Virus record (IMG/VR): IMGVR_UViG_3300021962_000103
Location: 1-62,113 of that record
Source of the DNA: a virus
Length of the DNA: 62,113 nucleotides
Direction: 5' to 3' (one strand)
Positions 30,645-59,898 of this stretch are shown piece by piece. The notes beneath the pieces are model-generated. The model had not been told where the DNA came from. It ran no database searches and saw only the letters and a list, made by a program, of their open reading frames with translations. Position 1 is the first letter of the stretch, and the number at the start of each line of letters is the position of its first letter. The position numbers were made by a program, and so were the translations under genes.

Positions 30645-32363
30645 TTAAATGATTTTCTTCTTCACTATATAGTTGTGTAAAACCAAAGTATCCATTTCAC
30701 AATTCAAGAATGTTTTTACCGCGGTTTCAGGGTCTAATACCATTGTTTGGTCTTTTAGATTGAATGAAGTATTTAACACAATTGGATAACCATTATCTAC
30801 CTCCAACTGATTAAGTAGTTTGTAGATACGAGTGTGTTGTCTATTATTAAGAGTTTGTATTCTTGCAGAACCATCAATGTGAGTAATCGCCGGTAAGTTC
30901 TTTTGATGTTCTTTCTTTACCTTAACTACTTGGTTCATATAAGGAACTAATTGTTTGTACTCAAAATACTTTAATCGTTCTTCTTCTTTTACAATTGGTG
31001 CAAAAGGTCTGAACCCTTCTCTCTTTTTAATTACACGATTAACTCGTGCCTTCATTTGAGGGTCTCTTGGATTAGCAAGAATAGAACGATTCCCAAGGGC
31101 TCGAGCACCGAACTCCATTCTACCTTCGAACCAACCAATGACATTACCATCAGTAATTTCTCTACTAATGATTGGGATAATTTGTGAGTGGTTTTTGTAT
31201 TCATACCAAACATCATCTTTATATTTTTCTAAAACTTCTACTATCTCTTCGTTTGTATAAGAAGGACCTAAATAAGGATTTGTATTAACAACTCTTTTCT
31301 TATTGTTCATTTCATTATACCAATAGTATAATCCTGCACCGATTGCAGAACCAGCATCAGATGGTGCGGCTGGAATCCACAATCCTTTGAATGGAGTTAA
31401 ATCTAAAATCTTACCATTTGCAGTTCCATTGTATGCACAACCCCCACTCAAACATAAATTATTAGCAGGTCTTAATGCAATTGCACGATTTAATAATTTA
31501 AAGAAATATTTTTCATAAGTTACTTGAACTGCTGCAGCAAAATCTTTATGTTCTTGGGTAAGTTCTTCTTCGGGTAATCTATTTAATAATCCAAAGTGTT
31601 CACCCAACTTTTCGTTGAACATCATATCATCTGACCAATCGTAATCAAAGAAATTCATGTTGATTTCAAATCCATTAGTTTCGGTTGGTGAAATAATATC
31701 ATCAAACTTTTTTAAGTAAGTATATGGATTACCATAAGGTGCAAGACCCATAACCTTATATTCACCTTCATTGGGTTTAAATCCTAAGAATGCAGTCATT
31801 GCAGAATAAAACATTCCCAATGAATGTGGAAAATGAATTGTTTCTAATTTGATGATTCGATTTTCATCACCGTATGCAATTGCAGTAGTTTCCCACTCTC
31901 CAACTCCATCTACCGATACAATCATTGCCCGTTCGTATGGAGATGTATAATATGCGTACGCAAGATGGGAAAGATGATGTTCTGAATAAAACACGGTTGA
32001 GTTTGGAAATTGTTTTTTAATTTCTTTTTCTACCTTTTTATATTCTTGTTTATTTCTATAAATGATTTCTTGTCTATGAACTTCTCGAAAGAACCCACCT
32101 CTCTTTGTAGATTTTTCAATTCTATCTATTTTGAGTTTTGGGTTTTCATAGAAACAAACTATCTCAATATCATCTTTGGTTATTTTTTCATTTTCCAATA
32201 ACCAATTAATTGTATTGGTTGGGAAGGATGAATCGTGTTTAATACCAGTGAATCTTTCTTCTTCACACGCACCAATCACTTCACCATTTTTAATTAAAGC
32301 AGCTGCAGAATCATGGTAACCAGAACTAATTCCTAAAATATAACAATCTTTAATCCTCATCAT
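30645..32363 (-). CDS. Carbamoyltransferase (NodU/TobZ family)
   Basis: 572 residues. The start YILGISSGYHDSAAALIKNG, the metal-site segment EHHLSHLAYAYYTSP, VSVDGVGEWETT and the C-terminal GWFEGRMEFGARALGNRSIL are the family signature for O-carbamoyltransferases that make carbamoyl-adenylate and transfer it to a sugar hydroxyl. Full length for the family, so likely active. These enzymes occur as auxiliary genes in some marine phages. Start chosen at the first ATG; the alternative TTG adds one residue. The gene overlaps the end of the late-sigma gene, so the two are coupled. It may modify phage or host glycans together with the sugar-transfer genes here. Confidence 0.9.
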   Translation of the reverse strand: MMRIKDCYILGISSGYHDSAAALIKNGEVIGACEEERFTGIKHDSSFPTNTINWLLENEKITKDDIEIVCFYENPKLKIDRIEKSTKRGGFFREVHRQEIIYRNKQEYKKVEKEIKKQFPNSTVFYSEHHLSHLAYAYYTSPYERAMIVSVDGVGEWETTAIAYGDENRIIKLETIHFPHSLGMFYSAMTAFLGFKPNEGEYKVMGLAPYGNPYTYLKKFDDIISPTETNGFEINMNFFDYDWSDDMMFNEKLGEHFGLLNRLPEEELTQEHKDFAAAVQVTYEKYFFKLLNRAIALRPANNLCLSGGCAYNGTANGKILDLTPFKGLWIPAAPSDAGSAIGAGLYYWYNEMNNKKRVVNTNPYLGPSYTNEEIVEVLEKYKDDVWYEYKNHSQIIPIISREITDGNVIGWFEGRMEFGARALGNRSILANPRDPQMKARVNRVIKKREGFRPFAPIVKEEERLKYFEYKQLVPYMNQVVKVKKEHQKNLPAITHIDGSARIQTLNNRQHTRIYKLLNQLEVDNGYPIVLNTSFNLKDQTMVLDPETAVKTFLNCEMDTLVLHNYIVKKKII

Positions 32364-33114
32364 CAAATATATCGTCTTCTAAATCTAACTTAGAAGTATC
32401 AATCCAAAATGGTTTATCTTTTACCGAAAATTCACCATCTTCAAGATACTCATTTAACATTTTTTTCTGATGTTGTTTCATTACATTTACAACCTTAGTA
32501 ATGTAGTGAGTTTTACAATCAGTCATTTCTCTAATAAGTAGATATAAATGTTTTTTATTAAAATTTTCTATGTATTGACTTCTACGAAAAAGTTCTAATA
32601 CTGCGTCTGCAATTTGTATATCTCTTTTCTTATTAAATACGGTTGCAAGGTGTCTATCCCAATACTCTAACATTATATCTTTAAACTCTCGGAACTCACC
32701 TGCCTCTTCCATTTCATAGTAATCATTTTCGGGATTCCATGATTCTGGCATTTCTGATAATAAGGCATTTTGTTTCCATCGTTTAAAGTTACCATTATTT
32801 TTTAAAATCAAATGATTCTTTGCAATAATAGTAAAGTATGAGAATGCTCTACCCTTACCTTCTTTGTACATATGCATTTTTTCAATCATGGTGGAAACCA
32901 CCTCTGTTTGAATATCTTTTTTAGGTACATCAAAGTACGAGAATTTAAATGTATTGATTACATTCTCTGCTAATTTTTCAAATGGATACTTAATTCTATC
33001 TTCATAAATCTTAGACCTTTTCATTGGGTCTTTTGTTTTATTATACTCAACGATTGCATCTTGAGCAGGAGTACCAAAATATATTTTAGATTTTGGTTTT
33101 CTTTGTTTTGTCAT
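32350..33114 (-). CDS. 55: Late transcription sigma factor (gp55-like)
   Basis: 254 residues. Residues about 40-110 look like a sigma-70 region 2: RIKYPFEKLAENVINTFKF, then a DIQTEVVSTMIEKMHMY helix and KGRAFSYFTIIAKNHLI. T4-like gp55 proteins share this core and no sigma region 4, and direct RNA polymerase to late promoters with a -10 box only. The long acidic C-terminal tail may contact the clamp. It is encoded in the unit behind the host-type promoter at 34363, consistent with middle expression. It is the best candidate to read the TATTTATA boxes of this genome. Confidence 0.8.
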   Translation of the reverse strand: MTKQRKPKSKIYFGTPAQDAIVEYNKTKDPMKRSKIYEDRIKYPFEKLAENVINTFKFSYFDVPKKDIQTEVVSTMIEKMHMYKEGKGRAFSYFTIIAKNHLILKNNGNFKRWKQNALLSEMPESWNPENDYYEMEEAGEFREFKDIMLEYWDRHLATVFNKKRDIQIADAVLELFRRSQYIENFNKKHLYLLIREMTDCKTHYITKVVNVMKQHQKKMLNEYLEDGEFSVKDKPFWIDTSKLDLEDDIFDDED

Positions 33115-45661: not shown

Positions 45662-45693
45662 TAAATATACGAAATTATTTTCTATTTTCCAAA
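45662..45693 (-). promoter_or_regulatory. Host-type (Bacteroidetes) promoter
   Basis: ATTTGG, 20 bases, TATATTTA (45662-45669), one mismatch to TAnnTTTG. Drives the nucleotidase, lipoprotein and acidic-protein genes. Confidence 0.62.
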
Positions 45694-46953
45694 TGTAATC
45701 ATAGTTTTTTTCCAAACTCCATTAACTTTTTTTAGTGCATTGTAGTTTCCATTATGATAATTTTCTGCAACAATTTCATCTTGACCATCTCCATCTAAAT
45801 CATCAAATTTAAATAGTGTCCATCCTTGAAAATCTTTTTCACCATTTATATAATTACCATCTAATGATTCTTTAAATATCTCCTCATCTTTGGTGAATGA
45901 TAAGTTTGTGTTATAATACAAAGTAAGTTTGGTTTTTAAATATTGTGGGTCTTGTGAACCATCGGGCAATCCACCAACAAATGCTAACTCAACTAAATCC
46001 AAGTCACCATCTGAATCAATATCAATTATTTCAAAATCTTGAACATCGGTAAAAGATGGTTTTGGTAAGTAAACAACTCGATTTGAATTATCAAATTTGC
46101 CTTGATTATTTAATACAATTGCAGCTCGTTCATCATGAGGACCTCTCAATATCAAATCATTCCAGCCATCCTTATCCATATCAACAATTTCATAAGTAAG
46201 TATATCTCTAACAAACGGTAGGTTATTCATTTCTATTGTTTTTGTAAAGTTTCCTTTACCATCACCGTACCAAATAAATGTAGCCGTAATTACATCAACA
46301 AACCCATCACCATTTAAATCTCCTGCGGCTCCATTATAGAACCAATAATCAGTTGGATTCGGAATTGTTTTTATATCAAATTTACCATTTGAATTTCCAA
46401 TCAATACCGTAAAATTACCACCGTATGGTCTTTCGATAATACCCAATACAATATAATCTGTAATCCCATCATTATTTATATCAGTTTTTAAAATCTTATA
46501 TGCATGGATTCCATCAGTTGATTGATTGAAGTATTCGGTTGTACTTGTAAAATGAAAATTATCTCCCTTATTTATATACCAAGCTAACTTAACATCTCCA
46601 TCATTTATGTGATATGTCATTAATATATCTTGGTGTCCATCATTATTAATATCTGCATATGCATGTCCATTACCATAATATCCTTGAGTTGTTCGTTCTC
46701 GGTTATCGATGATTGGGTTATAATCATAAAAATCATTTGACCAACTGAAGAACATACCACTGCGTTGATTTAAATAAGATTCTTTATGAAGTGGGTATGG
46801 TTTTGAATTTGTTGTGGAAGTTGTTGGTGGTAAATTTATTTTAGTGGTATCTTTTTGTATCAATTCCATTTGTTCTTCCATCTCAAGGAAGATTTCATCT
46901 TTTGAACAAGAAGCAAGTAATAAAATACTTGCAATAAATAATAATTTTTTCAT
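45682..46953 (-). CDS. VCBS/FG-GAP beta-propeller surface lipoprotein
   Basis: 423 residues. Signal peptide MKKLLFIASILLLASC with Cys 16 as lipid attachment site, then SKDE, the Bacteroidetes surface-export signal. The body carries six or seven repeats of the type DINNDGHQDIL, DLNGDGFVDVI, DMDKDGWNDLI and DLDGDGQDEIV, each with calcium-binding Asp residues: a seven-bladed FG-GAP/VCBS propeller. Such propellers mediate adhesion. A host-type promoter upstream of the small preceding gene suggests expression during infection, so receptor blocking, competition between phages or host-surface change is possible. Confidence 0.85.
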   Translation of the reverse strand: MKKLLFIASILLLASCSKDEIFLEMEEQMELIQKDTTKINLPPTTSTTNSKPYPLHKESYLNQRSGMFFSWSNDFYDYNPIIDNRERTTQGYYGNGHAYADINNDGHQDILMTYHINDGDVKLAWYINKGDNFHFTSTTEYFNQSTDGIHAYKILKTDINNDGITDYIVLGIIERPYGGNFTVLIGNSNGKFDIKTIPNPTDYWFYNGAAGDLNGDGFVDVITATFIWYGDGKGNFTKTIEMNNLPFVRDILTYEIVDMDKDGWNDLILRGPHDERAAIVLNNQGKFDNSNRVVYLPKPSFTDVQDFEIIDIDSDGDLDLVELAFVGGLPDGSQDPQYLKTKLTLYYNTNLSFTKDEEIFKESLDGNYINGEKDFQGWTLFKFDDLDGDGQDEIVAENYHNGNYNALKKVNGVWKKTMITFGK

Positions 46954-47516: not shown

Positions 47517-47543
47517 ATAACTCATTGGTTATCAATGAGTTAT
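47517..47543 (-). terminator. Intrinsic terminator of the modification island
   Basis: ATAACTCATTG, 5-base loop, CAATGAGTTATTTTTTTTTT read on the minus strand: an 11-base stem and long T run, six bases after the last stop of the island. Confidence 0.9.
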
Positions 47544-47549
47544 ATATTA

Positions 47550-48665
47550 TTAATGAATCTTACTAAGAAAATGATTTTCCAAGATATCAATCATTCTATT
47601 GCTTTTTATTAAATTTTCATAGTTCCACTCACAACTTCTTTTTATATTATCGTGGTTGTATATAAATGATAATTTAATAGCAGCATTAATAACCGAATCA
47701 ATATCGGTACAATCATATTCACCAATCAAATCATCAAAAGTGGTAAAACCAAAATTTTGTAATTGGTTTAAATGCATTTTTGTACCATATATAACAAATG
47801 GTCTTTTTAAATAAATTGGTTTAATTGTTTTTTCGGTAATGTGAGTTGGTGAATCGCCATGATTCGTTTCAATTACAATATTAACTTTTGAATCATAATA
47901 CCATTTTGGATTTATTGTGTAAAGATGTTGGTCTGCCGTATCTAATTCTGCACCATACATCACATCATCTTCTAATTGTATTGATTGAAAGTTATCAACA
48001 TCAATATTCAACTCCTTAACCAAAGATGAATTTCGCATCAAATTTGGATTTGTTTTATTTGCAACCAACGATAAATTAGTATAAGATAATAAACCTCGTT
48101 CTGATAATCTATTTACAAAATTAAACTTATGTATATGGACTCTTCTATTTAAGCAAAGAAAATCTTTTGTAGGTGTAATATCATTATATTCTGATAAATT
48201 TGTAATATATTCTTTCATTTTAAGTGGTGTTGCTAAAATAAAATGAGGAAAATATAAATGTTTTATTTGGTGATATCCATATTGAATAGTTCTTGGTTTA
48301 GAGGATGCATTTGTTACTAAAAAAAATCTATTAAAATTTAAATTTATATTTTTTAATTTATTTAAAAATATTATTCGTTCTTCATCTATAAAGTCATTAG
48401 CCTCGGTAGAATAATCTGCCAAAAAATAAAATCCTAATTTATTTAAGTCATCTAATAAATTTAAAAAACTATCCGTATTTGTTTTGTGTTCTAAATTTAT
48501 AGATACACTCGTTTCCCAAAAAAATATTATAATATTTTTATCTTTAGGATTCACATAATCCTTATTAAATTCTTGAAACGAAATATTACAATACGTTTCT
48601 ATCAATCCCTGTATTCCCGTACCACCTATTAGTGGGTGATACCAAAATTTAATTCCACTTATCAT
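47550..48665 (-). CDS. Glycosyltransferase-like protein
   Basis: 371 residues, last gene of the island. The C-terminal third has HITEKTIKPIYLKRPFVIYG and FGFTTFDDL, alignable with the gene at 4000-5094, and a His/Arg-rich middle (CLNRRVHIHKFNFV). The pattern suggests a sugar-nucleotide-using enzyme. The N-terminal part is AT-rich and diverged. The radical SAM gene overlaps by four bases. Acceptor and donor unknown. Confidence 0.55.
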   Translation of the reverse strand: MISGIKFWYHPLIGGTGIQGLIETYCNISFQEFNKDYVNPKDKNIIIFFWETSVSINLEHKTNTDSFLNLLDDLNKLGFYFLADYSTEANDFIDEERIIFLNKLKNINLNFNRFFLVTNASSKPRTIQYGYHQIKHLYFPHFILATPLKMKEYITNLSEYNDITPTKDFLCLNRRVHIHKFNFVNRLSERGLLSYTNLSLVANKTNPNLMRNSSLVKELNIDVDNFQSIQLEDDVMYGAELDTADQHLYTINPKWYYDSKVNIVIETNHGDSPTHITEKTIKPIYLKRPFVIYGTKMHLNQLQNFGFTTFDDLIGEYDCTDIDSVINAAIKLSFIYNHDNIKRSCEWNYENLIKSNRMIDILENHFLSKIH

Positions 48666-49735
48666 ATAACACTTTTTATAGGTTTTACAAATTCTTGTAG
48701 ATTACTCCATGCAGTATCTCTTGGTAAAACTTTGTTTAATTCTTTTAAAAACTCTTTATGTTCTGGGTGGGTTGGTTTCCACACTTGATGATATAATAAT
48801 TCATCTTCAGTAAAGGTATCCCAATCAGTAATTTTACTATAAAATATATTTCCTTTAATGCCAAATATAGAAATCATAATATCGTGAAAATCTTTCATTT
48901 CTTTGTAGTTATGTTTTTGAACAACGAACGATAGTTTAACCGATTTTAATGCTGGAATGGTTTCTATAAATTTTAAATTATCAATCAACTCATCCCATTT
49001 ACCTCCCAATCTTACTTTATTTTCGTAAGTATCCTTAGTAGCAGCATCAATAGATATTTCACAACTCTTTACATATTTGTGAATGTTTGACATCGAATCC
49101 CACATTTTTTTATTCCATCGAGTTGCATTTGTATGAAGATGTATTTTTTCTAGTTTTGGCCACTTCTCTCTATCAAACTCTCGTAAAAAATCTCTAAAAC
49201 CAACTGATATAAATGGGTCACCCGTGCCGGTTATATATATGGTTCTAACTTCATGACCAAAATCATTTTGAATATCAATGATATTTTGTTTAACGAATTT
49301 TATTTCATCACTATTGGCCATTATTAAACGAACTCTACACGATGGACATTTTAAGTTACAACTATCATCAAATGAGAATTGTACAATTCTTGGTGAATTT
49401 AATTTATTAGATTTATGTTTTTCAATTAACTCCACTAATGTAGTTGGTAAATTATCTTTATGGTATATAGGTTCAACCTTACCAACATTACCAAAAGATT
49501 TTATTTGATTTAAATATGGACATATTTTAGAATCACAATATCGATAACTACCATCTAAGATGGATTCTCTAATATCATACGCTTCATTTGAATTCCAAGC
49601 GTCATATGGAGTTGAATTTTCGGGTAGATTATTTCGTAACCACCCATCACAACATAAGAATCTTTTTGATTTTCTTACTTCTATTGAAGAGAATGGAACT
49701 GCACATATATAATTTTTTAAATCTTTGCTTTCCAT
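48662..49735 (-). CDS. Radical SAM enzyme with N-terminal SPASM-like cysteine region
   Basis: 357 residues. The cluster motif C126-x3-C130-x2-C133 (CNLKCPSC) is followed by the GTGDPF and the SIDAATKDTYENKVR strands of the radical SAM barrel. Ahead of it, residues 11-65 contain CAVPFSSIEV, FLCCDGW, a DAWNSNEAYDIR segment and Cys-x4-Cys, the usual layout of a SPASM auxiliary-cluster domain, but placed at the N-terminus rather than the C-terminus. SPASM enzymes modify peptides or proteins; the substrate is not known. Placed beside dioxygenases and SET genes, peptide or protein modification is the favoured reading. Confidence 0.85.
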   Translation of the reverse strand: MESKDLKNYICAVPFSSIEVRKSKRFLCCDGWLRNNLPENSTPYDAWNSNEAYDIRESILDGSYRYCDSKICPYLNQIKSFGNVGKVEPIYHKDNLPTTLVELIEKHKSNKLNSPRIVQFSFDDSCNLKCPSCRVRLIMANSDEIKFVKQNIIDIQNDFGHEVRTIYITGTGDPFISVGFRDFLREFDREKWPKLEKIHLHTNATRWNKKMWDSMSNIHKYVKSCEISIDAATKDTYENKVRLGGKWDELIDNLKFIETIPALKSVKLSFVVQKHNYKEMKDFHDIMISIFGIKGNIFYSKITDWDTFTEDELLYHQVWKPTHPEHKEFLKELNKVLPRDTAWSNLQEFVKPIKSVI

Positions 49736-50223
49736 TATATTATATTAGTTTTGTCAATTAAATCAGTTCTTAATCTATCTTTACTTTTTTCATCAAAAAA
49801 ATCTTCATAATATTGAATTGGTGTTTGTAATACATCAGATAATATTTGTAAATCATTTTTCATCTGTATTAGCAATTTTTTTGAATCGTTTATAACTTTA
49901 TCCGAAGGGGCTTTGTACTTGTATGGTTTTGTCGAATCATATCCTAATGGAATATTATGATAAATATATGTATATGACTCAAGGTGTTCTTTAAAATTTT
50001 TTCTACTTAATAATATTATCTCATCAAAATCTTTAGATAGTTGTATATTATTTGGGTGTTGAAATATTATTGTTTTTAATACAATATTATCTTGCCCATC
50101 ATATAAAAATCTACCACTGCCATCAAACGGTTCGAATAATGGAATTAGTTTTTTTTCTTTTGCTATTTTATACAATAAAGAAGTTGAACCAGTTCTAGGT
50201 AAACCAATTATCAAAATCCTCAT
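49735..50223 (-). CDS. Sulfotransferase-like P-loop protein
   Basis: 162 residues. MRILIIGLPRTGSTSLLYKI is the PAPS-loop (LPRTGSTS) of sulfotransferases, and EIILLSRKNFKEHLESYTY is the likely 3-prime-phosphate segment. The domain is short but both ends are present. The stub at 52447-52611 matches its first 40 residues. Neighbours overlap by one and four bases. The acceptor may be a sugar or a hydroxylated residue made by the dioxygenases. Confidence 0.65.
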   Translation of the reverse strand: MRILIIGLPRTGSTSLLYKIAKEKKLIPLFEPFDGSGRFLYDGQDNIVLKTIIFQHPNNIQLSKDFDEIILLSRKNFKEHLESYTYIYHNIPLGYDSTKPYKYKAPSDKVINDSKKLLIQMKNDLQILSDVLQTPIQYYEDFFDEKSKDRLRTDLIDKTNII

Positions 50224-50762
50224 ATTAATGTTTTATTTTCGGTTTGTCTTGTTGTAGATTTAATTGTTATATCAGAAATTTCAATGTTATAATCCAACTC
50301 AATGATAAAATTTAAAATTTTAAATAAATCCTCAAATTTTAGTTTATTATAATCACCTCCAAACATTTTGTTATTTTCCAATGTACTTGGATTAAAATTT
50401 ATTATTCTAACTTTTTTATATGGGTTTGCTATATTTAATGTTTGTGATAAATTTATTAAATGTTTTTTATTAGAAACATACAAAGGACTAAAGCACCCGT
50501 CTTCGTGTATTGCAGAAGTTCCAAAGTTTATTATTGTTTTTTCTAAATTTTTCCATTTCTCAAATAACTCATAAAATACCAAAGATTGTTTTACATCTTT
50601 GCTATAAGCATGATTTAAAAACATATCACATGATTCTATCTTTGATATTATAACATCAATATCTTCTCTTAAATCTATTTTTATTATATCATTGTGTTGT
50701 CCCCATGCAATTGATGCATAGTTACCAAACCCATCCGATGTACCTGATATTGCTATTCTCAT
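50220..50762 (-). CDS. Rossmann-fold protein (SDR-like)
   Basis: 180 residues. MRIAISGTSDGFGNYASIAW resembles the short-chain dehydrogenase nucleotide loop (TGxxxGxG), and an INFGTSAIHEDG strand follows with a later Tyr/Lys-rich stretch (YVSNKKHLI), the site of the SDR catalytic Tyr-x3-Lys. Shorter than a full SDR (about 250), so an incomplete or diverged enzyme. An NAD(P)-dependent sugar or residue oxidation is possible. Confidence 0.55.
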   Translation of the reverse strand: MRIAISGTSDGFGNYASIAWGQHNDIIKIDLREDIDVIISKIESCDMFLNHAYSKDVKQSLVFYELFEKWKNLEKTIINFGTSAIHEDGCFSPLYVSNKKHLINLSQTLNIANPYKKVRIINFNPSTLENNKMFGGDYNKLKFEDLFKILNFIIELDYNIEISDITIKSTTRQTENKTLI

Positions 50763-51262
50763 AATAACTTAGAGTTTGCTATATTTAAATGATATTTGTT
50801 TAAGAATAATATAAGTGACCATCGTTCACCTTTTGTTATCTTTTTTACTTCATGTTCTCTATCACTTCTCATCGTGTAAATAGTACCAACAACTTTTGGA
50901 AGTATTTCATCTGGATTATATGCAATAAATTCACCACCTTCATATTCATCGTTTAAGCAAACACCAATATTTAAAAGTTGGTCTGGATGATTTGTTGAAT
51001 CATTATGTCTGGCAAATTCATTCCCAGTCAAATAACGATGTAAATAAATCTCTGGCATTTCGTATAGTTTATTATTGGGATATTCTGTTTTCAAAAAATC
51101 AGATAATCTATTAAAAATCCATTGAGTGGTTGAATCTCTAACTACAACATGATAATAATAATTAAAATCCTGTCTTTTAAATAAATTCGAAGAATGTGTT
51201 GATTTAAATATATTAGATAAATTTATTATTTCGGCACATTCGTTTTTTGTAAATGAAATCAT
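50759..51262 (-). CDS. 2OG-Fe(II) dioxygenase (prolyl hydroxylase-like)
   Basis: 167 residues. Metal ligands H86-x-D88 and H137; R147 in KKITKGERWSLILFL binds 2-oxoglutarate. The sequence LNDEYEGGEF after the HxD is the double-stranded beta-helix turn of the prolyl 4-hydroxylase type. Its ending (HEVKKITKGERW) is nearly the same as in the gene at 53704, so the two come from duplication. Overlaps both neighbours by four bases. Confidence 0.88.
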   Translation of the reverse strand: MISFTKNECAEIINLSNIFKSTHSSNLFKRQDFNYYYHVVVRDSTTQWIFNRLSDFLKTEYPNNKLYEMPEIYLHRYLTGNEFARHNDSTNHPDQLLNIGVCLNDEYEGGEFIAYNPDEILPKVVGTIYTMRSDREHEVKKITKGERWSLILFLNKYHLNIANSKLL

Positions 51263-51801
51263 AATATTTTTTTATTATCATATAATTTTAAATATTTAAA
51301 ATTAGTATTTGTCATCCAAATGTTTAAGGCACACCTAATACCATTTACAACTGGCATTACCCCATGATATATTTTACTACCATCAAACGATATTGATTGT
51401 CCAATTTTTAATTCATACTTTTCAGAATCAGTTTGTTTATGTGTTTCGGATAACATGAATCTCCCATCTGTAAAATTATCATTTAAAACTATAACAGTTG
51501 TCAATTGTGAAGTTGAATCTAAATGTAAATCCAATCTCCTACCTTCATAATATTTAGTTATACTGATGTTGACATCTTTGATTTCAAACTCTTCCAATGG
51601 AAACCATAATTTGAATTTATTATCATCATAGTTTTTTATAAATCTATCAATGATTAATTTGTTAAAATCAACATCTGCTATTCTTTTACAATCCCACACT
51701 TCGGTTGGATTATAATTAAATTTTTTACCAACTCTATCTGCGTATTCAATAATTGAATTACATTCTTCTTTTTCAAAAAAATTATTTATCGAATAATTCA
51801 T
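51259..51801 (-). CDS. 2OG-Fe(II) dioxygenase
   Basis: 180 residues. H93-x-D95, H146 and R156 make up the metal and cosubstrate site; LNDNFTDGRF is the turn after the HxD strand. An N-terminal helical region differs from that of the other copies. It is followed by a gene with another dioxygenase in the same unit. Target unknown. Confidence 0.85.
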   Translation of the reverse strand: MNYSINNFFEKEECNSIIEYADRVGKKFNYNPTEVWDCKRIADVDFNKLIIDRFIKNYDDNKFKLWFPLEEFEIKDVNISITKYYEGRRLDLHLDSTSQLTTVIVLNDNFTDGRFMLSETHKQTDSEKYELKIGQSISFDGSKIYHGVMPVVNGIRCALNIWMTNTNFKYLKLYDNKKIL

Positions 51802-52433
51802 AATATTTTTTTCTCCGTAGTATCAGTTTTAAAATCAACAATTGGTTCGTTTACTTCTAACAAATCATGTAATTTTTTATACACATCATAACAACCAACT
51901 GGGCCGGGATGAAAATCTATCTCCTCACCAACTCCCTCATCCCAATTAGAAGTAGTCTGAATTAAAGTAACGAAGTCTGAAGTGCCTAAATAGAATTGTT
52001 CACTCCAAGTAACAAAGACTGGTTTATATAAATTTAACCATTTTTTTAAATTTTTTATAAAATTTATGTCATTTTGTCTAATACCGTTTACCCAATTATC
52101 ACCCTCAACTAATCTTAACTGGTCTAATTTTTTGGCAAAATGCTTATCCTTAAAAAAATTTGGTGATTTATATGGGTTATCTATAAAAGTAGAATGTCTT
52201 TCACCATAGTATCTTCTAGGTAATCTACCTGCATCTGTAAAATATATAACAATTCTATCACCCTCGATGTAATCACCTAAATTTCCTAACTGAAATAATA
52301 TAGAATAATTATCAGCTCCCAATTTACCGAACTTAATAACTTCATAATGGTTTTCTAAATAATGAGTCCAATGAAATTTAGGTAAGTGCCAATCAACAAA
52401 AGAATCACCAAAACAAAATAATCGAGGTTTCAT
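51798..52433 (-). CDS. SGNH/GDSL-like hydrolase
   Basis: 211 residues from ATG at 52433 (MKPRLFCFGDSFVDW); an upstream ATG at 52490 would run through the small gene at 52447 and is rejected. GDSFVD is block I of SGNH hydrolases, with the Ser nucleophile; GADN (Gly/Asn region) and the C-terminal DFHPGPVGCYDVYKKL carry the Asp/His pair. Members remove acyl groups from sugars or esters. Located between dioxygenases, so it may remove or add an O-acyl mark. Confidence 0.65.
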   Translation of the reverse strand: MKPRLFCFGDSFVDWHLPKFHWTHYLENHYEVIKFGKLGADNYSILFQLGNLGDYIEGDRIVIYFTDAGRLPRRYYGERHSTFIDNPYKSPNFFKDKHFAKKLDQLRLVEGDNWVNGIRQNDINFIKNLKKWLNLYKPVFVTWSEQFYLGTSDFVTLIQTTSNWDEGVGEEIDFHPGPVGCYDVYKKLHDLLEVNEPIVDFKTDTTEKKIL

Positions 52434-52446
52434 AACTACTATTTTT

Positions 52447-52611
52447 TTAATTTTTTTTCCACCACCCAAATTGAAATTTTTTTTCATCAAGATTAGTATG
52501 TGTGGTATCCATATTAAATGGTTCTGCTATAACATGATATTTTTGATTACCAAAAGCATTTGATAATGATATTGTTCCACATCTACCTATCCCCACTAAC
52601 AAAATTTTCAC
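52447..52611 (-). pseudogene. Truncated sulfotransferase-like P-loop gene
   Basis: 54 codons from a GTG at 52611 (overlapping the preceding stop as GTGA) to TAA at 52447-52449. The product starts VKILLVGIGRCGTISLSNAF and goes on with IAEPFN, like the first 40 residues of the sulfotransferase-like protein at 49735 (IGLPRTGSTS, EPFD). The rest of the domain is missing and the end is a Lys-rich run, so it is either a decayed copy or a kept short peptide. An interrupted paralogue is more likely. Confidence 0.65.
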
Positions 52612-53108
52612 AGTAAAGATTGTTTTTTATTAAACATGATAACCAATACTCTTCGTTGTCCTGACTCTACCGATGTCACAGAATGTATGTGTGTATGACC
52701 GTTGAATGAAATATATTGACCTTTTTTTGTTAAATTCATATCAGTATCATCAACTAATAGTTTACCTCCAGTAAATGAATCAGATAGTAGTATTAAAGTT
52801 GTTTGTAACACATAATATGCATCTCTATGTGGTGTTGTGTAATCGCCCGTATCATAAATCAGTTCATAGAAAAAATCTATATCATAATCCGGATTTCCAA
52901 ATTTATTTAATATAAATTTATTAAGTTCACTATCATGTAATCCATAATGTTTCATTGATGATAATATAAGTGCATTATCATCTCTCATTACTGCGTATGG
53001 ATGTTTTTTTTGTAAAGTTTTATATTCAATTTCACTCATTCCCATATTCTTTGAAAGGGAATCATTAATATAATTTAACTCATCTTGTGTTAGAAAATCT
53101 ACAATCAT
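52608..53108 (-). CDS. 2OG-Fe(II) dioxygenase
   Basis: 166 residues. H94-x-D96, H142, and an Arg (152/153) in GQRRVLVIMF; LLSDSFTGGKL is the turn. The family plan is that of prolyl hydroxylase-like enzymes. Follows the 53110 gene with a one-base gap. Substrate unknown. Confidence 0.85.
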   Translation of the reverse strand: MIVDFLTQDELNYINDSLSKNMGMSEIEYKTLQKKHPYAVMRDDNALILSSMKHYGLHDSELNKFILNKFGNPDYDIDFFYELIYDTGDYTTPHRDAYYVLQTTLILLSDSFTGGKLLVDDTDMNLTKKGQYISFNGHTHIHSVTSVESGQRRVLVIMFNKKQSLL

Positions 53109-53109
53109 T

Positions 53110-53700
53110 TTATAATAATGTTTTTTTATTATCGTTATTAAATTTTTTTTCTCGTATCCAAATAACTAAAATATATTTAATACCATCTATAACAGGTAAT
53201 CCTGCATGTTTAGTTCTCCTATTTGGTGTTCTATCTTCATTTAAATTTTTCCAAAATAATAAATCACCAACTCTACCCTTTATTTTAATATTTTCAGAAG
53301 GAAATACAGTTTCACCTCCAATATAATTATCATTTAAATATATAATACTTGTTATTAACCTGTCTCCCATTTGTGGTTGGGGTATATTTTCTATGTTGCC
53401 AAAAAAATCGTGATGGGGTTTATATTGATTGCCCGTTTCATATTTAATAAAAGAAATTGGGGTTTCTTGATTATCAATATCAGTATTTGTTTTAATTGAT
53501 ACTATTTTACGAACTTTTTTTAAAAGAATACTTTCATCATCATAAAGACCAATTTTTGCATCTCTATAATTTATAGTACCAACTATGGTTTCTGCCGTTT
53601 TGAATTTATTAAATTCATCTATTAAATTTTTACACTCTATACTTGTTAGTACGTTTTCTTCAAGTTGGTAAGTAAAAATATCATTTTTTAATAATTTCAT
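53110..53700 (-). CDS. 2OG-Fe(II) dioxygenase (prolyl 4-hydroxylase-like)
   Basis: 196 residues. H96-x-D98 and H165 are in place (KPHHDFFG, RTKHAGLPV), and LNDNYIGGETVFP is the classic P4H turn. The usual cosubstrate Arg is Lys (K175) in DGIKYILVIWIR, as in P4H enzymes. It is the longest copy with the clearest match to prolyl 4-hydroxylases. Hydroxylation of proline in a phage or host protein is a fair working guess. Confidence 0.9.
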   Translation of the reverse strand: MKLLKNDIFTYQLEENVLTSIECKNLIDEFNKFKTAETIVGTINYRDAKIGLYDDESILLKKVRKIVSIKTNTDIDNQETPISFIKYETGNQYKPHHDFFGNIENIPQPQMGDRLITSIIYLNDNYIGGETVFPSENIKIKGRVGDLLFWKNLNEDRTPNRRTKHAGLPVIDGIKYILVIWIREKKFNNDNKKTLL

Positions 53701-53703
53701 AAT

Positions 53704-54198
53704 TCATATAACACTTTTTATTTTAGTTGTATCTTTTTTTAAATCTCTAAATCGTAAAAAAAATAATGCAGAGTATCGTGTACCTTTTGTTATTTTTTTA
53801 ACTTCATGATATTCATTTGATTTGTAATGATAAATCTCTCCCATCGGTTTTGGGTATGGAACATCATTTAAATAAAATTCACCACCCTCATAATCATCAT
53901 TTAATAAAACATTTATGTTATATATAAAATCCTTAGTATGTTTTGTTCCTCCCATATCTATATGTCTAGCAAATACATCGCCGGGGAAATATTTTATAAT
54001 ACCAACTTCAAGATTGATTATATCTATATTTAATTGTGTTTTACAATATTCAATAATCAAGTTTTTAATATCACCATCTTCTAATGCAAGTACAACGGTT
54101 CTATACGATGTTTTAACACCAAATCTTATTCGTTTCCACTCATCTTTAGATTCGGCCAAATTAATCAAATACTCACATTGTTCTTTAGTTAGATTCAT
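53704..54198 (-). CDS. 2OG-Fe(II) dioxygenase
   Basis: 164 residues. H79-x-D81, H131 and R141 (HEVKKITKGTRYSALFFLR). Close in sequence to the gene at 50759-51262, whose last motif is almost the same. The N-terminal KEQCEYLINLAES helix is shared too. Starts four bases inside the preceding gene. Confidence 0.88.
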   Translation of the reverse strand: MNLTKEQCEYLINLAESKDEWKRIRFGVKTSYRTVVLALEDGDIKNLIIEYCKTQLNIDIINLEVGIIKYFPGDVFARHIDMGGTKHTKDFIYNINVLLNDDYEGGEFYLNDVPYPKPMGEIYHYKSNEYHEVKKITKGTRYSALFFLRFRDLKKDTTKIKSVI

Positions 54199-54692
54199 AT
54201 AATTGTTTTATTTAATTTATCATCATCTACAAAATTTGTTATAGAACCATAAATACCAATTCTATTTGGTATTGAACAACTACTTCCTATAAAATTTTCA
54301 GTTTTAAATAGTAATAGGTCACCATCATCTACTGATATTTCATTTATACCGGTTTGTGAATTTATTAAAATTTTACTATTTAAAGATTTTGTAAAAAAAA
54401 TAAATGAATACTTTGATATTAGATTTATATCATTTTTTAATTGTTTGGTAAATTTAATTTCTTCATTATTGTTTTCGGTGAAAGTAAAAATAGTTTTAAC
54501 ATATGTATTGAAATTTTCACCAGTCATTAATTTTAATTCATCTAAAATATTTTCTATTAGATGTGAAAAAATCTTTGATTGAATCATTAATATTCTTTTG
54601 TTAGATTGTATTTTTACATTCTTGACATTTGTATTTATTTCATCCTCTAAAGATATCAAATCAACATTTAATTTTATTATTTTATATAGCAT
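54195..54692 (-). CDS. Degenerate dioxygenase-like protein
   Basis: 165 residues. It has the size, position and end pattern (SFIFFTKSLNSKILI, then GDLLLFKTENFIG and RIGIYGSITNF) of the neighbouring dioxygenases, but no HxD pair or distal His is visible in the expected places. The Arg before IGIYG aligns with the cosubstrate Arg. So the fold may be kept without metal binding, as a pseudoenzyme or scaffold. Less likely, it is unrelated. Similarity is by eye only. Confidence 0.5.
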   Translation of the reverse strand: MLYKIIKLNVDLISLEDEINTNVKNVKIQSNKRILMIQSKIFSHLIENILDELKLMTGENFNTYVKTIFTFTENNNEEIKFTKQLKNDINLISKYSFIFFTKSLNSKILINSQTGINEISVDDGDLLLFKTENFIGSSCSIPNRIGIYGSITNFVDDDKLNKTII

Positions 54693-54694
54693 AA

Positions 54695-55324
54695 TTAGTT
54701 AGTTACATAATCATAAAAATTAATTCTTTTGTTTGTTTCTCTGGTGTGTGTAAAATTATAGTTAATGTTTGTTGTATATACAATTCTATTTGATTTTGCT
54801 TGTAATGTTGGTATTGGCATGTGGGGTAAATCGCCGGGAAAAAATATTATATCATTTTCCTTTGGTGTAAATGAATGAAGTATATCATCTTCTGTTTTAA
54901 AAATCAAATTACCCTCATCATCTTTTAAGTTTGGAGGTATCTGAATATAAAAAACATAGGTCCATTGTGTTTTTAAGATGGTTCTGTTTGATGATTCAAC
55001 CCAATCGTGTGTATGCATCCATTCTATTTTAAATTCGGGAATTTGAACATATATCCAACTTGATGTTACATATGTATTTATGGGTGTGGATAACTTTGAT
55101 TCTAAAAAATTTAAAGATTGGGTATCTACCGATTTAAATTCATCACATTCAATGTGTAATTCAAGTGAATTGGGGTATTCTGATTTTTTACCATGGTACA
55201 ACAACTCGTTTTGTTTTACTCTATTTAAAAAATCATCTTTAGAGTATTTTCTATTATATGTTGTTTTATAGATTGTATATTTTTCAGATAAATTATATTG
55301 TTCGAAATCTCCTAAGCTTTTCAT
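54695..55324 (-). CDS. 2OG-Fe(II) dioxygenase, phage-type
   Basis: 209 residues from ATG at 55324 (MKSLGDFEQYNL); an earlier start at 55357 would overlap the SET gene by 65 bases instead of 32. WMHTHDW (H104, H106, D107) and, later, FFPGDLPHMPIP with H168 and R180 (SNRIVYTTN) match the phage HxH...G...FPxxLxH...R type of oxygenase, a different branch from the five prolyl-type copies. It is larger and more divergent, pointing to a different substrate. Confidence 0.75.
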   Translation of the reverse strand: MKSLGDFEQYNLSEKYTIYKTTYNRKYSKDDFLNRVKQNELLYHGKKSEYPNSLELHIECDEFKSVDTQSLNFLESKLSTPINTYVTSSWIYVQIPEFKIEWMHTHDWVESSNRTILKTQWTYVFYIQIPPNLKDDEGNLIFKTEDDILHSFTPKENDIIFFPGDLPHMPIPTLQAKSNRIVYTTNINYNFTHTRETNKRINFYDYVTN

Positions 55325-55727
55325 ACTTGCCGTATTTTGTAAATAATTCGCTGCCACACTTTATATTTTTTTTAGAGATTAATAAATCTCTATCCATATT
55401 AGGTTCTTCATTCCATGAACAACTATTAACCCAATGTAGGGGATTTTTAAATATCCAATGACAATCCTTGTTAAGAATTATTCTCATTTTCCAACTACCC
55501 ATATGATTATCGAAAGAAAACATATCGTATAAATGATATTGTACATTTTCGTCTAATTGGAAAAAATCATCTTGATTTAAAAAATATTCTCCAGATTCAC
55601 CCTCCCAATTAACAAATAGGGGCTCACCCTCTTTAATTGTTCTTAATGCAAACACACCAACTCCTTGTACTGTACTTGGTGCCAATTTTACATTTACATG
55701 ATTTTTAACATATTCAAATGCTGTCAT
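55293..55727 (-). CDS. SET domain protein
   Basis: 144 residues. LAPSTVQGVGVFALRTIKEG is the start of a SET domain (GxGxFA...I..G), and NSCSWNEEPN plus CGSELFTKYG is its end (NH/NS...N and GExL...YG). SET domains transfer methyl groups from SAM to lysine. The usual Asn-His is Asn-Ser here. It lies in tandem with the SET gene at 55724, overlapping by four bases. The phage SAM synthetase could supply SAM. Confidence 0.75.
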   Translation of the reverse strand: MTAFEYVKNHVNVKLAPSTVQGVGVFALRTIKEGEPLFVNWEGESGEYFLNQDDFFQLDENVQYHLYDMFSFDNHMGSWKMRIILNKDCHWIFKNPLHWVNSCSWNEEPNMDRDLLISKKNIKCGSELFTKYGKYEKLRRFRTI

Positions 55728-56197
55728 ATAAAGTTTTTTGGGTTTGTTTTAAATTGAGAACCATAGTTTGCTAATATTTCTTCACCTTTCTTAATTTTTT
55801 TAATGGCGAAAGCACCTTTGTTTGATAGGGTGTCTACATTAGCTTTACTCAATCCACTATTTAAAAACATTGATGGCCAAACAAATACCCAATGACATCC
55901 TTTAATTAAAGGAAAAAATATTTTACCATATTCAAATCTTAATAATGAAATTTCATTATTTTCATCATGTGAATAAAGTTTATTATCAAAAGTTTCGTAT
56001 ATACTTTTTTCAAGTTCAACCGGTAATGTAAATAATTCTTCTTGTGTTATTGAATATATACCCGTTTCGCCTGTCCAAGGTTCAAAAATAAACGTACCCT
56101 CTTCAATATCTTTTATGGCGAAAAAACCCACACCCGCAACAGAACTGGGTTTGATTATACTAACAACCTTTTGCTGTAGATATTCTATTGGACTCAT
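55724..56197 (-). CDS. SET domain protein
   Basis: 157 residues. IKPSSVAGVGFFAIKDIEEG and the C-terminal FLNSGLSKANVDT with KKGEEILANYG are SET end motifs. Its paralogue is the next gene. A lysine methyltransferase is implied, but the catalytic Tyr is only probable (NYG). First of the two SET genes after the 47-residue peptide gene. Confidence 0.75.
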   Translation of the reverse strand: MSPIEYLQQKVVSIIKPSSVAGVGFFAIKDIEEGTFIFEPWTGETGIYSITQEELFTLPVELEKSIYETFDNKLYSHDENNEISLLRFEYGKIFFPLIKGCHWVFVWPSMFLNSGLSKANVDTLSNKGAFAIKKIKKGEEILANYGSQFKTNPKNFI

Positions 56198-56214
56198 AAG
56201 TGATTATAAAAAAA

Positions 56215-56358
56215 TTAAGAATGTTTAACTTTTATCAACTCCATTAGTTTTGATAATATAGTAAACCCCTTTTCTTTTTTTTCATCACTAATTGGAGAAC
56301 CTTGTCTCAATTTAGCATCAATAATACTTATTGACTTATATTCAGTTGGTTTTATCAT
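56215..56358 (-). CDS. 47-residue peptide gene at the head of the island
   Basis: Read by hand: MIKPTEYKSISIIDAKLRQG, then SPISDEKKEKGFTILSKLM and a basic C-terminus ending KHS. It lies five bases after the Hint-domain gene and 17 before the SET gene. Two helical halves, no Cys and no signal. It could be a substrate or regulator for the modifying enzymes, or just a small phage protein; no evidence decides. Confidence 0.55.
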   Translation of the reverse strand: MIKPTEYKSISIIDAKLRQGSPISDEKKEKGFTILSKLMELIKVKHS

Positions 56359-56363
56359 GGTTC

Positions 56364-58241
56364 TTATAATTTTGGTGTATATAATCTATTATGAACTAAT
56401 ACATTGTTAGCAAAAAAGTTGTGGTTGTTTTCAACATCTTGTAAATTATAAACAACAACTGGTTCGTTGATTTGATTGATGTTAACTATTTTAGAATTAC
56501 CATCAACTAATCTTAAAGTATCACCAATCTCAATCTTATTAACAGGTGTCTCTAAACTATATAATTTATTTGATAATCCATTATCATATGATGACCATCC
56601 TTTATTTTCAACATATAGTGGGTGGTCCAAAGTACATCTTACTATATCACCATTATCCAATTCGTATTCAACAGTTGCATCTACTTTTTTACTAAAAACA
56701 GCATTAACTACATTTGCTTCAACAACTTGGGTTAACATATTAAATGTTAATACCTCATCTCCATTAACAACATCTTCAATGTTTTTCATATCACCATTTG
56801 AAAGAGATATTTGTGTACCTGCAACAAAACAAGGTGAGTTGTGAGTTACGAATGAGTTGATTGGTGTTGAACCTGCAATAATATATGTATCAGTATCTTC
56901 TACATCTATTTCAACCAAACCAAAATCATCTTCATTTATTATTAAGATATCGGAGGTTGTAACTTGTGCCATCGAACCATCATAATCAATTAAATAATCG
57001 GTTGTTGCTTGAACATCTCGAGATTGTTTCCATACAATTGAATCCATTCCACTATCATAAACCAAGAATGATTTATATGTTGATACATACAAAGAATCCT
57101 CATTATTGTTTACGGTCAATCTACATAGTGTTTTATTTTCTAATGGTTTACTGTTTTTATAAATAACGGTTGATGTTGTTAACTCAGAACCAGATGGTAG
57201 TGTGTTTCCTTCTATTTTCCATGTAGGGTAAGTAAAATCATCTTCTGTTAAATCAGTACCACCAATGTAATATGATTTAATATCATCACCTACTGCAAGA
57301 TTACCTATTTCTATTTCAGTATCATCTGCTTTAATTACTAAATGTGTGTTTAATATACCATCAACTCTACCATCGTATTTAATAAAATTAGTTGCAAATT
57401 CATAGTAATGTTTTGCATCAATTCTATTTACATATTGATTATCATTATAAATTGGCTCAGTTGGTAATTCAAAAACAGAGTTTTCTTGAAACTGACCAAC
57501 ATGGATTAAAGATAAATCTGCACCATAAATTATTGAAAATGTTCTTATTGAGGAAACTCTATTATTCGATAGTGTTTCTAAACTTTTATGATATTTCTGA
57601 ATAAGAATATCTTCTCCTGTAACAGAATTAATAAATGAATTCCATCTAGTTTCGGATGTATCTGCTTCAGATTCGGCTCCTATTTTATAAAACCCAATTG
57701 CAGAATGACTTTCATCACTAATATTTTTTACTAAACAATCAGGTAAATTATTTGGATTAAACTCTCGTGTTAGTGTATCGGTAGTTGATAAAGAAGAAGA
57801 GTGATAGAATTCAGTCACCATATCCTCTTGATTATAATCCACAAATAATTGTAAAGTATTTAATGTTCCTTTTGCATATTCACTATCAAAAATAGCAGAT
57901 TCATCATATGCCATTCTTAGGATAAACAAATCATCCGCATCTTCAACAATAGTTGGATATATTCTAGTTACCTGTTCCTTTACTTCATTGAATTCTACAA
58001 TAAAAGGTGCATCGGATACTAAGTATTGTGCTAGTTTATTAACAATTTCCTGATGAATTACTGGTTTATGAATTACAGTAACTTTTGTAATATTATTAAG
58101 CTGTAATACATCTTTGAGATTATCAAAATTTAAATATGTTAAATTGTTTGCAGAAACGGTTGTATCGGTATTAACCTCTAACAATCTTAGATTACCGTTA
58201 TTATCTTCAACAAAATCCGCGGAAAAAAATGTTCCTTTCAT
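56364..58241 (-). CDS. Phage protein with two tandem Hint (intein-like) domains
   Basis: 625 residues. The N-terminal half starts GTFFSADFVEDNNGNLRLLE followed by VNTDT, like the metal-binding strand pair of ATP-grasp enzymes, and is otherwise unassigned. Residues 295-468 form a first Hint fold: the N-terminal nucleophile position is Gly (G295, in GILNTHLVIKADD), GNLAVGDDI follows and the end is FVTHN (H467, N468) then S469. Residues 471-618 form a second: C471 in CFVAGTQISL, a TLDH motif and an end VHN (H617, N618), then only seven residues beginning with Arg. Each lacks one splice residue, so cleavage rather than splicing is expected. First gene of the island, with a late box. Confidence 0.8.
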   Translation of the reverse strand: MKGTFFSADFVEDNNGNLRLLEVNTDTTVSANNLTYLNFDNLKDVLQLNNITKVTVIHKPVIHQEIVNKLAQYLVSDAPFIVEFNEVKEQVTRIYPTIVEDADDLFILRMAYDESAIFDSEYAKGTLNTLQLFVDYNQEDMVTEFYHSSSLSTTDTLTREFNPNNLPDCLVKNISDESHSAIGFYKIGAESEADTSETRWNSFINSVTGEDILIQKYHKSLETLSNNRVSSIRTFSIIYGADLSLIHVGQFQENSVFELPTEPIYNDNQYVNRIDAKHYYEFATNFIKYDGRVDGILNTHLVIKADDTEIEIGNLAVGDDIKSYYIGGTDLTEDDFTYPTWKIEGNTLPSGSELTTSTVIYKNSKPLENKTLCRLTVNNNEDSLYVSTYKSFLVYDSGMDSIVWKQSRDVQATTDYLIDYDGSMAQVTTSDILIINEDDFGLVEIDVEDTDTYIIAGSTPINSFVTHNSPCFVAGTQISLSNGDMKNIEDVVNGDEVLTFNMLTQVVEANVVNAVFSKKVDATVEYELDNGDIVRCTLDHPLYVENKGWSSYDNGLSNKLYSLETPVNKIEIGDTLRLVDGNSKIVNINQINEPVVVYNLQDVENNHNFFANNVLVHNRLYTPKL

Positions 58242-58268
58242 AATATTTTTTCTCTATTTTTATTCTTA

Positions 58269-58276
58269 TATAAATA
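58269..58276 (-). promoter_or_regulatory. Putative late promoter box for the modification island
   Basis: TATTTATA within TTATATTTATATAAG, 28 bases before the ATG at 58241. Follows the end of the PhoH gene by about 30 bases. Confidence 0.75.
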
Positions 58277-59529: not shown

Positions 59530-59898
59530 TTAAATGAGATTCTTTTGTATCTTTCTCGAATCGTTTAATTGTTTTCTTGTAACTTTATTTTTCAAGTTAG
59601 TTTTGAACTTTTGTATTTCTGCACATCGTTCGTACATTTCCTTTTTTACAAACCATTCATTACAATAATCTAATACAATATCAAAATCATGTCTTTCAAT
59701 CATAACAACCGAACCAGCGTTTGTATGTACCACAAATGCTAAAGAATCTTTTCCATCTAAAATTGAGTTGTGTATGTTTTGTGCAATTTGCCAAAGTACA
59801 TCATTACCATTCTTATCCAAAAAGTTTTGAACAAATGGATTATCAGGTACTAAATATTTTTCCCAACCTACCGTTGTGAATGACCTTGTTGTTCTCAT
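59530..59898 (-). CDS. Unknown conserved-looking small protein
   Basis: 122 residues after a strong GGAGG ribosome site eight bases before the ATG. Starts MRTTRSFTTVGWEKYLVPDN; the last third is basic (NKVTRKQLNDSRKIQKN). No family recognised. It lies in the unit between the 59911 virion-type gene and the acetyltransferase. Confidence 0.6.
   Translation of the reverse strand: MRTTRSFTTVGWEKYLVPDNPFVQNFLDKNGNDVLWQIAQNIHNSILDGKDSLAFVVHTNAGSVVMIERHDFDIVLDYCNEWFVKKEMYERCAEIQKFKTNLKNKVTRKQLNDSRKIQKNLI

Follow-up and report, generated by a model that had tools for sequence, protein, structure and literature searches.

A late viral gene island encodes a Hint-domain carrier, a micropeptide and modification-type enzymes that share a C-terminal tag

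We analysed an operon-like gene island in the DNA, 62,113 nucleotides long, of an uncultured phage from freshwater (IMG/VR record IMGVR_UViG_3300021962_000103, positions 1 to 62,113; hereafter the window). The island encodes a Hint-domain protein, which we call the carrier, a partner micropeptide and a series of modification-type enzymes, most of which end in a common short motif, the tag. All island genes are on the minus strand, from 58241 down to 47550, and the stretch 58276-47517 appears to be one transcription unit. A late-type promoter box, the decamer TATTTATATA (58267..58276, minus strand), lies 26 bp 5' of the start codon of the carrier gene, the first gene of the island, and an intrinsic terminator (47517..47543, minus strand), a perfect inverted repeat with an 11-pair stem followed by T10, closes it. 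We observed nine copies of TATTTATATA in the window against 1.5 expected from shuffles, eight of them on the coding strand and mostly 23-35 bp 5' of an open reading frame. This excess and spacing make the late promoter box of an earlier first-pass annotation well founded and, together with the 11-bp stem and T10, bear out its single unit between a late promoter and a strong terminator. The tight overlaps of 1-4 bases that it described were also observed, since nine gene junctions of the island overlap by 1 or 4 bases. With a single promoter and terminator, one strand and a shared promoter class, the genes constitute a co-expressed late phage gene island. An Rfam search of the window gave no match.

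The carrier (56364..58241, minus strand) has 625 residues and starts MKGTFFSADFVEDNNGNLRLLEVNTDT. It consists of a permuted-ATP-grasp-like domain (residues 1-290), a first Hint domain (Hint1, 291-468, ending ..FVTHN), the linker SP, a second Hint domain (Hint2, 471-618) and the tail RLYTPKL. Its assignment as a Hint protein was confirmed with the Pfam family Intein_splicing (1.5e-10), and Foldseek matched its AlphaFold2 (AF2) model to BIL domains (E 2e-13). Residues D9, E22, N24, K172, R233, N468 and C471 are invariant in a 13-member carrier alignment. Profile searches matched Hint1 to inteins and BIL domains at 1.8e-5 to 7.7e-5, and to Hint2 at 9e-6. The first Cys of Hint1 is absent in the aligned homologues, while the terminal Asn is kept without exception; with the N-terminal nucleophile of Hint1 missing from the carriers examined, cleavage is expected at the Asn only. 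Hint2 has the block A/B/F/G residues of the Hint fold (Cys1, TLDH and HNFFAN..VHN, Cys..VLVHN, then Arg). Type A BIL domains cleave by Asn cyclisation, with no downstream nucleophile (PMC4031507). Carriers of the window's class have one to three further Hint domains in tandem after Hint1, with 0-11 residues between them.

In alignments of thirteen and of twenty homologues, D9, E22, N24, the Lys and the Arg of the N-terminal domain are kept. They resemble ATP-grasp residues in circularly permuted order, and the comparisons suggest that this may be a circularly permuted ATP-grasp domain. Circularly permuted sequences of the domain, compared with PDB and Pfam, gave no consistent Pfam match, and a Foldseek search of it against viral models gave no significant match. 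We found 244 relatives of the domain in viral contigs, and in 84,980 species genomes a single short match, which lies on a metagenome contig of 3.7 kb; tblastn against 50,697 phage records, many sequenced T4-like phages included, gave no match. Judged by its sequence relatives, the carrier is a conserved, virus-only protein.

The partner micropeptide (56215..56358, minus strand; 47 residues, ending KVKHS) is real and conserved, being 72% identical in the relative L001. In nearly every locus that we examined, the carrier is followed by such a micropeptide, with a length of 25-51 residues. The Hint protein and the 47-residue peptide were mere list items in the first-pass annotation; both are real, and the comparison makes them the conserved core of the system.

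The island contains 14 enzyme genes by our count, all on the minus strand, and their families were called with Pfam profiles with a cut-off and with PHROG families. Two SET genes, one radical S-adenosylmethionine (SAM) gene, four 2-oxoglutarate (2OG)-Fe(II) oxygenase genes and the Hint/intein-splicing domain scored above the Pfam cut-off. Both SET proteins that had been predicted are therefore supported: the first (55724..56197; PF00856 4.6e-6) ends in the tag PKNFI, and the second (55293..55727; PF00856 1.1e-8) in RFRTI, a degenerate tag. They are followed by a 2OG-Fe(II) oxygenase-like gene of uncertain start codon (54695..55357; PF13640 0.0022, below the cut-off; phrog_81 2OG 5.5e-9) that is untagged and ends YDYVTN. 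The next protein, of 165 residues (54195..54692; tag NKTII, with 4/4 homologues tagged), gave no Pfam or PHROG match; it indeed has no His ligands, as had been noted, but the label "dioxygenase-like" reflects its appearance only. Further 2OG-Fe(II) oxygenases are encoded at 53704..54198 (HID..H..R; PF13640 6.5e-7; tag IKSVI), 53110..53700 (HHD..H; PF13640 1.2e-13; tag KKTLL), 51259..51801 (HLD..H..R; PF13640 1.6e-7; tag NKKIL) and 50759..51262 (HND..H..R; PF13640 9.8e-9; C-terminus NSKLL), and an oxygenase-like protein at 52608..53108 (HRD..H..R; PF13640 2.9e-4, below the cut-off; phrog_61 8e-8; tag KKQSLL). Thus four of the six dioxygenases originally proposed stand by Pfam; those at 52608 and 54695 fall below the cut-off, yet they match PHROG 2OG-type families and keep their His ligands. 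PHROG families 274 and 2297, which are named DNA endonuclease (V), also match 2OG-Fe(II) oxygenases here. Phage records such as those of Pelagibacter phage HTVC008M and Synechococcus phage S-H38 bear the endonuclease V label on short genes near 2OG or halogenase genes, which is probably an annotation error.

The radical SAM call was likewise upheld: this protein (48662..49735; CNLKCPSC, with further Cys motifs; PF04055 7.3e-8; tag IKSVI) has 48 viral relatives. Three other calls are weak and depend on motifs, with profile scores that were sub-threshold or absent. These are an SGNH-type hydrolase (51798..52490; FCFGDSF..DFHPGP; true start probably MKPRLF; tag EKKIL) with an orthologue at L001:16466-17101, a Rossmann-like reductase-type protein (50220..50762; tag NKTLI) whose L001 counterpart is 84% identical, and a small sulfotransferase-like protein (49735..50223; LPRTGSTSL; Sulfotransfer_3 0.24, motif-level only; tag DKTNII, with 13/15 homologues tagged). 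The last island gene (47550..48665) encodes an untagged protein of 371 residues that had been called glycosyltransferase-like; the resemblance is one of appearance only, and the call received no family support. A 54-residue sulfotransferase-like stub (52447..52611) is a truncated remnant of a gene of 229 residues, whose N-terminus it matches and which is intact in L060 (15003-15692). This origin had been overlooked in the first-pass annotation, as had the ATP-grasp-like N-terminal half of the Hint protein and the common C-terminal motif. Just downstream of the island, outside the tagged set, the window encodes an FG-GAP repeat lipoprotein (45682-46953, minus strand), which is unusual in a phage.

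Tag counts were made with a simple greedy gene caller on related sequences that are not independent, and are to be read as effect sizes, not exact probabilities: the pattern [KR]x(1-2)[ILVMF][ILV] ends 10/14 island enzymes and only 4/56 other genes of the window (Fisher 2e-6). With a looser pattern 11-12 of the 14 are tagged. The consensus is K (0.55), [TKSN] (0.81), [LI] (0.78), [IL] (0.86) and the carboxyl end. Two of the four tagged genes outside the island also fit the stricter K[TSKNQDE][ILMFV][IL], namely a carbamoyltransferase gene and gene 59530. The former, a NodU-like gene far from the island (30645-32366, minus strand; phrog_1601, 1e-112), ends VKKKII, the same tag. The latter (59530-59898, minus strand) encodes 122 residues with no assigned function and ends IQKNLI; similar genes are found just upstream of carriers in L023 and L029.

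The same tag was observed near carriers in other contigs. Among 1054 such genes it was 96 times commoner at the C-terminus than internally, and it occurred in about 20 unrelated families. Among 709 non-redundant genes of related contigs, 65% of the homologues of island proteins carried it as compared with 14% of the others, and the strict tag was found on 26-36% of genes near a carrier versus 12% in carrier-less loci. In the 219-kb contig G001, 15 of 17 tag matches fell on modification-type genes within 4.5-33 kb, and another fell on a polysaccharide pyruvyl transferase-like gene at 146 kb. Tagged radical SAM proteins run about 20 residues past the end of their untagged marine homologues. The 2OG and halogenase genes of HTVC008M and S-H38 bore no tag, and no carrier was found in either phage. 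Two further observations concern tagged genes: in G004:C1 a second group of genes, SGNH and glycosyltransferase-like and tagged, lies at 59.5-73.8 kb, about 12 kb away from the island, and a conserved Cys-containing protein of 92-112 residues (weakly DUF6171), usually tagged, adjoins carriers (L022:6064-6369 and many others).

Many island junctions are ATGA or TAATG overlaps, and the tag might be a by-product of gene coupling, in which the upstream frame runs through AT-rich DNA that precedes the following start codon. When all genes near carriers were counted, tag frequency was indeed high at such junctions (0.34-0.47). However, tag frequency among homologues of the island proteins was 0.62-0.76 in each class of junction (ATGA overlap, TAATG overlap, short gaps and gaps of at least 20 bases, the last with 12/18 tagged), so gene overlap is not its cause. 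In addition, 147 tagged genes do not overlap the next gene and have varied Ile and Leu codons, and the tagged gene at 30645 is far from the operon. The gap-class frequencies and the non-overlapping tagged genes largely refute an overlap artefact, and we consider this origin very improbable. As the motif is enriched at the C-terminus in unrelated families regardless of overlap, it is a tag at the protein level.

Such a tag could also be a timed degradation signal, a ClpX-type C-terminal degron by which the enzymes are removed at a fixed point of the infection rather than docked. The end of MuA is a basic-hydrophobic C-terminus that ClpX recognises, and the tag resembles it; moreover, the tag is on enzymes and not on the carrier or on structural genes. 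This explanation is improbable in our judgement, as it does not account for a tag that is confined to enzymes of modification type close to carriers, some of them encoded outside the operon (carbamoyltransferase- and glycosyltransferase-type genes).

We then compared the gene order of the island across related phages. The freshwater contigs L001 and L002, identical over the compared stretch and probably one virus, carry the island in nearly the same order, while in L011 and L060 it is present with insertions and losses, the order being largely kept. A query with the radical SAM protein retrieved 48 contigs, many with similar islands; the Rossmann protein matched only the two nearest contigs. 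By PhoH comparison, a Flavobacterium phage (61% identity) is the closest cultured relative; it has no island beside its PhoH gene. Homologous phages thus carry these genes as a unit rather than scattered. The idea of a dedicated late modification system kept as a unit is supported by this order, by the promoter box shared with other genes of the same strand and by the common tag. These sequence comparisons show a conserved unit of viruses, made up of the carrier, the micropeptide and a changing set of enzymes. Flavin-dependent tryptophan-halogenase genes are present in the islands of L018, L022 and L153, tagged in the first two. Upstream of the carrier in L022, L043, L060 and L157 we observed a recurring trio of APS-kinase-like, nucleotidyltransferase-like and small DUF2061-like genes, a possible source of 3'-phosphoadenosine-5'-phosphosulfate (PAPS) for sulfotransferases. 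Kinase- and nucleotidyltransferase-type genes adjoining carriers (L011, L043, L060) would fit such a supply of activated sulfate.

The enzymes might instead be ordinary auxiliary genes for glycan or lipid modification (remodelling of surface polysaccharides), as in many T4-like marine phages, with the Hint protein an unrelated neighbour. Glycosyltransferase, SGNH esterase-type and carbamoyltransferase genes do lie nearby in relatives, and cyanophages often carry 2OG and halogenase genes (PMC10452541). However, the usual substrates of SET, 2OG and radical SAM/SPASM-like enzymes are proteins or peptides, the carrier and micropeptide stay beside the enzymes in many contigs, and the common tag ties the enzymes together. 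We therefore regard this explanation as having little chance of being correct.

Most relatives have a carrier that lacks Hint2 and ends, directly after the Asn of Hint1, in a short C-terminal peptide (the core) rich in Cys, Pro, Gly, Ser and aromatic residues. We collected 52 distinct cores of 28-69 residues, and the number of Cys was even in 52/52 (6 in 18, 8 in 33 and 10 in one). The cores fall into 35 clusters below 50% identity, and the count is even in all. The even number suggests disulfides. In 84 pairs with leaders more than 70% identical, median identity was 79% for the leader versus 40% for the core. These sequences have the pattern of a leader and a core, with cysteines in pairs. 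The carriers of L152-L154 have a core with six Cys flanked by Hint1 and Hint2, an architecture that, as far as the sequences go, is the natural intermediate linking both types of carrier. In two of these three (L152:2076-4001, L153:8001-9929, L154:8001-9920) the core ends GGGG or GG before the Hint2 Cys, and excision or cyclisation is possible. A search for a separate Cys-rich precursor elsewhere in the window and in G001 yielded no convincing gene, and two cores compared with PDB sequences gave no significant match.

Other relatives, all of them marine, have an S74-like domain in place of the tail, which is below the cut-off and matches PHROG virion structural proteins (L157 1e-7, L160 2e-7); the window carrier has no S74 domain. 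In L157 (7222-9171) a Tyr-rich core of about 90 residues with 6 Cys is followed by the S74-like domain instead of Hint. These ends, together with the L151 carrier gene that adjoins the tail-sheath and tail-tube genes, lend some support, from relatives, to a virion component as the target of modification; nothing specific speaks for the host envelope, the other target proposed in the first-pass annotation. They also fit a carrier that is itself a virion surface or fibre protein, whose Cys-rich end is a receptor-binding or adhesive tip and whose Hint or S74 domains are folding or processing devices, while the enzymes decorate virion proteins and glycans and no free peptide is made. The late-type promoter agrees with this, and a hypervariable tip would suit receptor binding. 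Nevertheless, the Hint1 Asn immediately before the variable end predicts its separation, the carrier has no fibre-like repeats, and it is missing from the 50,697 phage records. We consider such a fibre unlikely, though a serious contender.

Our preferred interpretation, to which we assign a probability of roughly 0.5 from the sequence evidence, is that the island is a late-expressed tailoring factory around an autoprocessing carrier, with the tagged enzymes docked and with disulfide-rich peptides in relatives. Late in infection, the carrier, the micropeptide and the tagged enzymes would be made together. Through the tag, all the enzymes would dock to one partner. The simplest and natural candidate is the carrier or the micropeptide, as this partner is always present. 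Hydroxylation, radical-SAM chemistry, sulfation and methylation (halogenation in relatives) would then be applied to the carried segment, and Hint1 would cut after its Asn by predicted self-cleavage. Disulfides would form after the product leaves the reducing cell, and the finished disulfide-rich product would go onto, or out with, the virion. As the window carrier has no Cys-rich core, a different substrate is expected here, either one of the two island products (carrier or micropeptide) or a virion protein whose gene lies elsewhere. The core may have been lost recently, or release or attachment of a different kind may be the role of the Hint tail.

Several observations weigh against the tailoring factory. 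All that is left of the core in the window and in the phages closest to it is SP or AP, with one to three Hint domains behind it, and the Cys-rich part rests on relatives. Several island enzymes and many genes adjacent to carriers are untagged. Disulfides need neither radical SAM nor sulfation, and the S74-like carrier ends suggest a virion fibre over a released peptide. For the N-terminal domain, the top Foldseek matches (LysX, ArgX and PurK) are weak at E 0.03, and the top profile matches, D-Ala-D-Ala ligases, have E values of at least 0.09 and cover a single motif.

A more specific and tentative version, against which the odds lean somewhat, is that environmental phages run a line resembling that of ribosomally synthesised and post-translationally modified peptides (RiPPs). 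Here a permuted ATP-grasp/Hint carrier would present a hypervariable and disulfide-rich core to K-x-L-I-tagged enzymes, and the core would be freed by Asn cyclisation. The second Hint of L152-L154 may free both ends of the core or circularise it, and the window would be a derived form in which Hints replaced the core. RiPP clusters of the radical SAM/SPASM, 2OG and ATP-grasp classes resemble the loci of the relatives: one precursor combines a conserved leader with a hypervariable core, and tailoring enzymes from families that act on peptides come after it. In the window, radical SAM, 2OG and SET genes lie in the carrier operon, as tailoring enzymes lie beside a precursor; a leader with a variable core is present in class A relatives (those with the 52 cores), whereas after Hint1 only SP precedes Hint2 here. 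Unlike in RiPP clusters, a Hint domain and possibly an ATP-grasp fold form part of the leader of about 460 residues, a C-terminal tag is common to the enzymes, the even Cys parity points to disulfides, the system is virus-only, and the window core is missing.

Hint2 is like type A BIL domains (PMC4031507) in its Cys1, block B His, terminal HN and absence of a +1 nucleophile, and BIL domains were the top Foldseek matches; in contrast, Hint1 has no N-terminal nucleophile, and further Hints stand in tandem in the window's class. The 2OG, halogenase and carbamoyltransferase sets of T4-like cyanophages and pelagiphages (HTVC008M, S-H38) belong to the same superfamilies and lie near structural genes, but neither a carrier nor a tag was found in those examined. 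Some marine relatives of the carrier end like S74-chaperone tail fibres, but most carriers end in Hint and a Cys-rich segment, and the N-terminal domain has no match among known fibres. The cargo peptides of encapsulins and microcompartments offer an analogy only: they are short terminal peptides that unrelated enzymes have in common and that serve co-localisation; no shell protein was identified here, and their motif is unrelated to the island tag.

A literature search on phage RiPPs, on Hint, ATP-grasp or Cys-rich carriers and on disulfide-rich hypervariable phage peptides found no description, which is weak evidence as its coverage lacked preprints and most subscription papers. We know of no RiPP class, intein, phage tail system or cargo-targeting system that combines these features, and to our knowledge a C-terminal tag common to about 20 unrelated enzyme families is undescribed. 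Such a tag would account for the way in which a phage brings a modification factory together inside a crowded cell, and it could serve to identify more members where homology is lacking. The carriers indicate a large reservoir, restricted to viruses, of mini-proteins that are hypervariable, rich in disulfides and unusually modified (halogenation, sulfation, radical chemistry), and the variability of the cores suggests an arms race with hosts or rivals. Together, these comparisons have led us to conclude that the Hint domains are of a known kind, and that the whole assembly and its tag are not.

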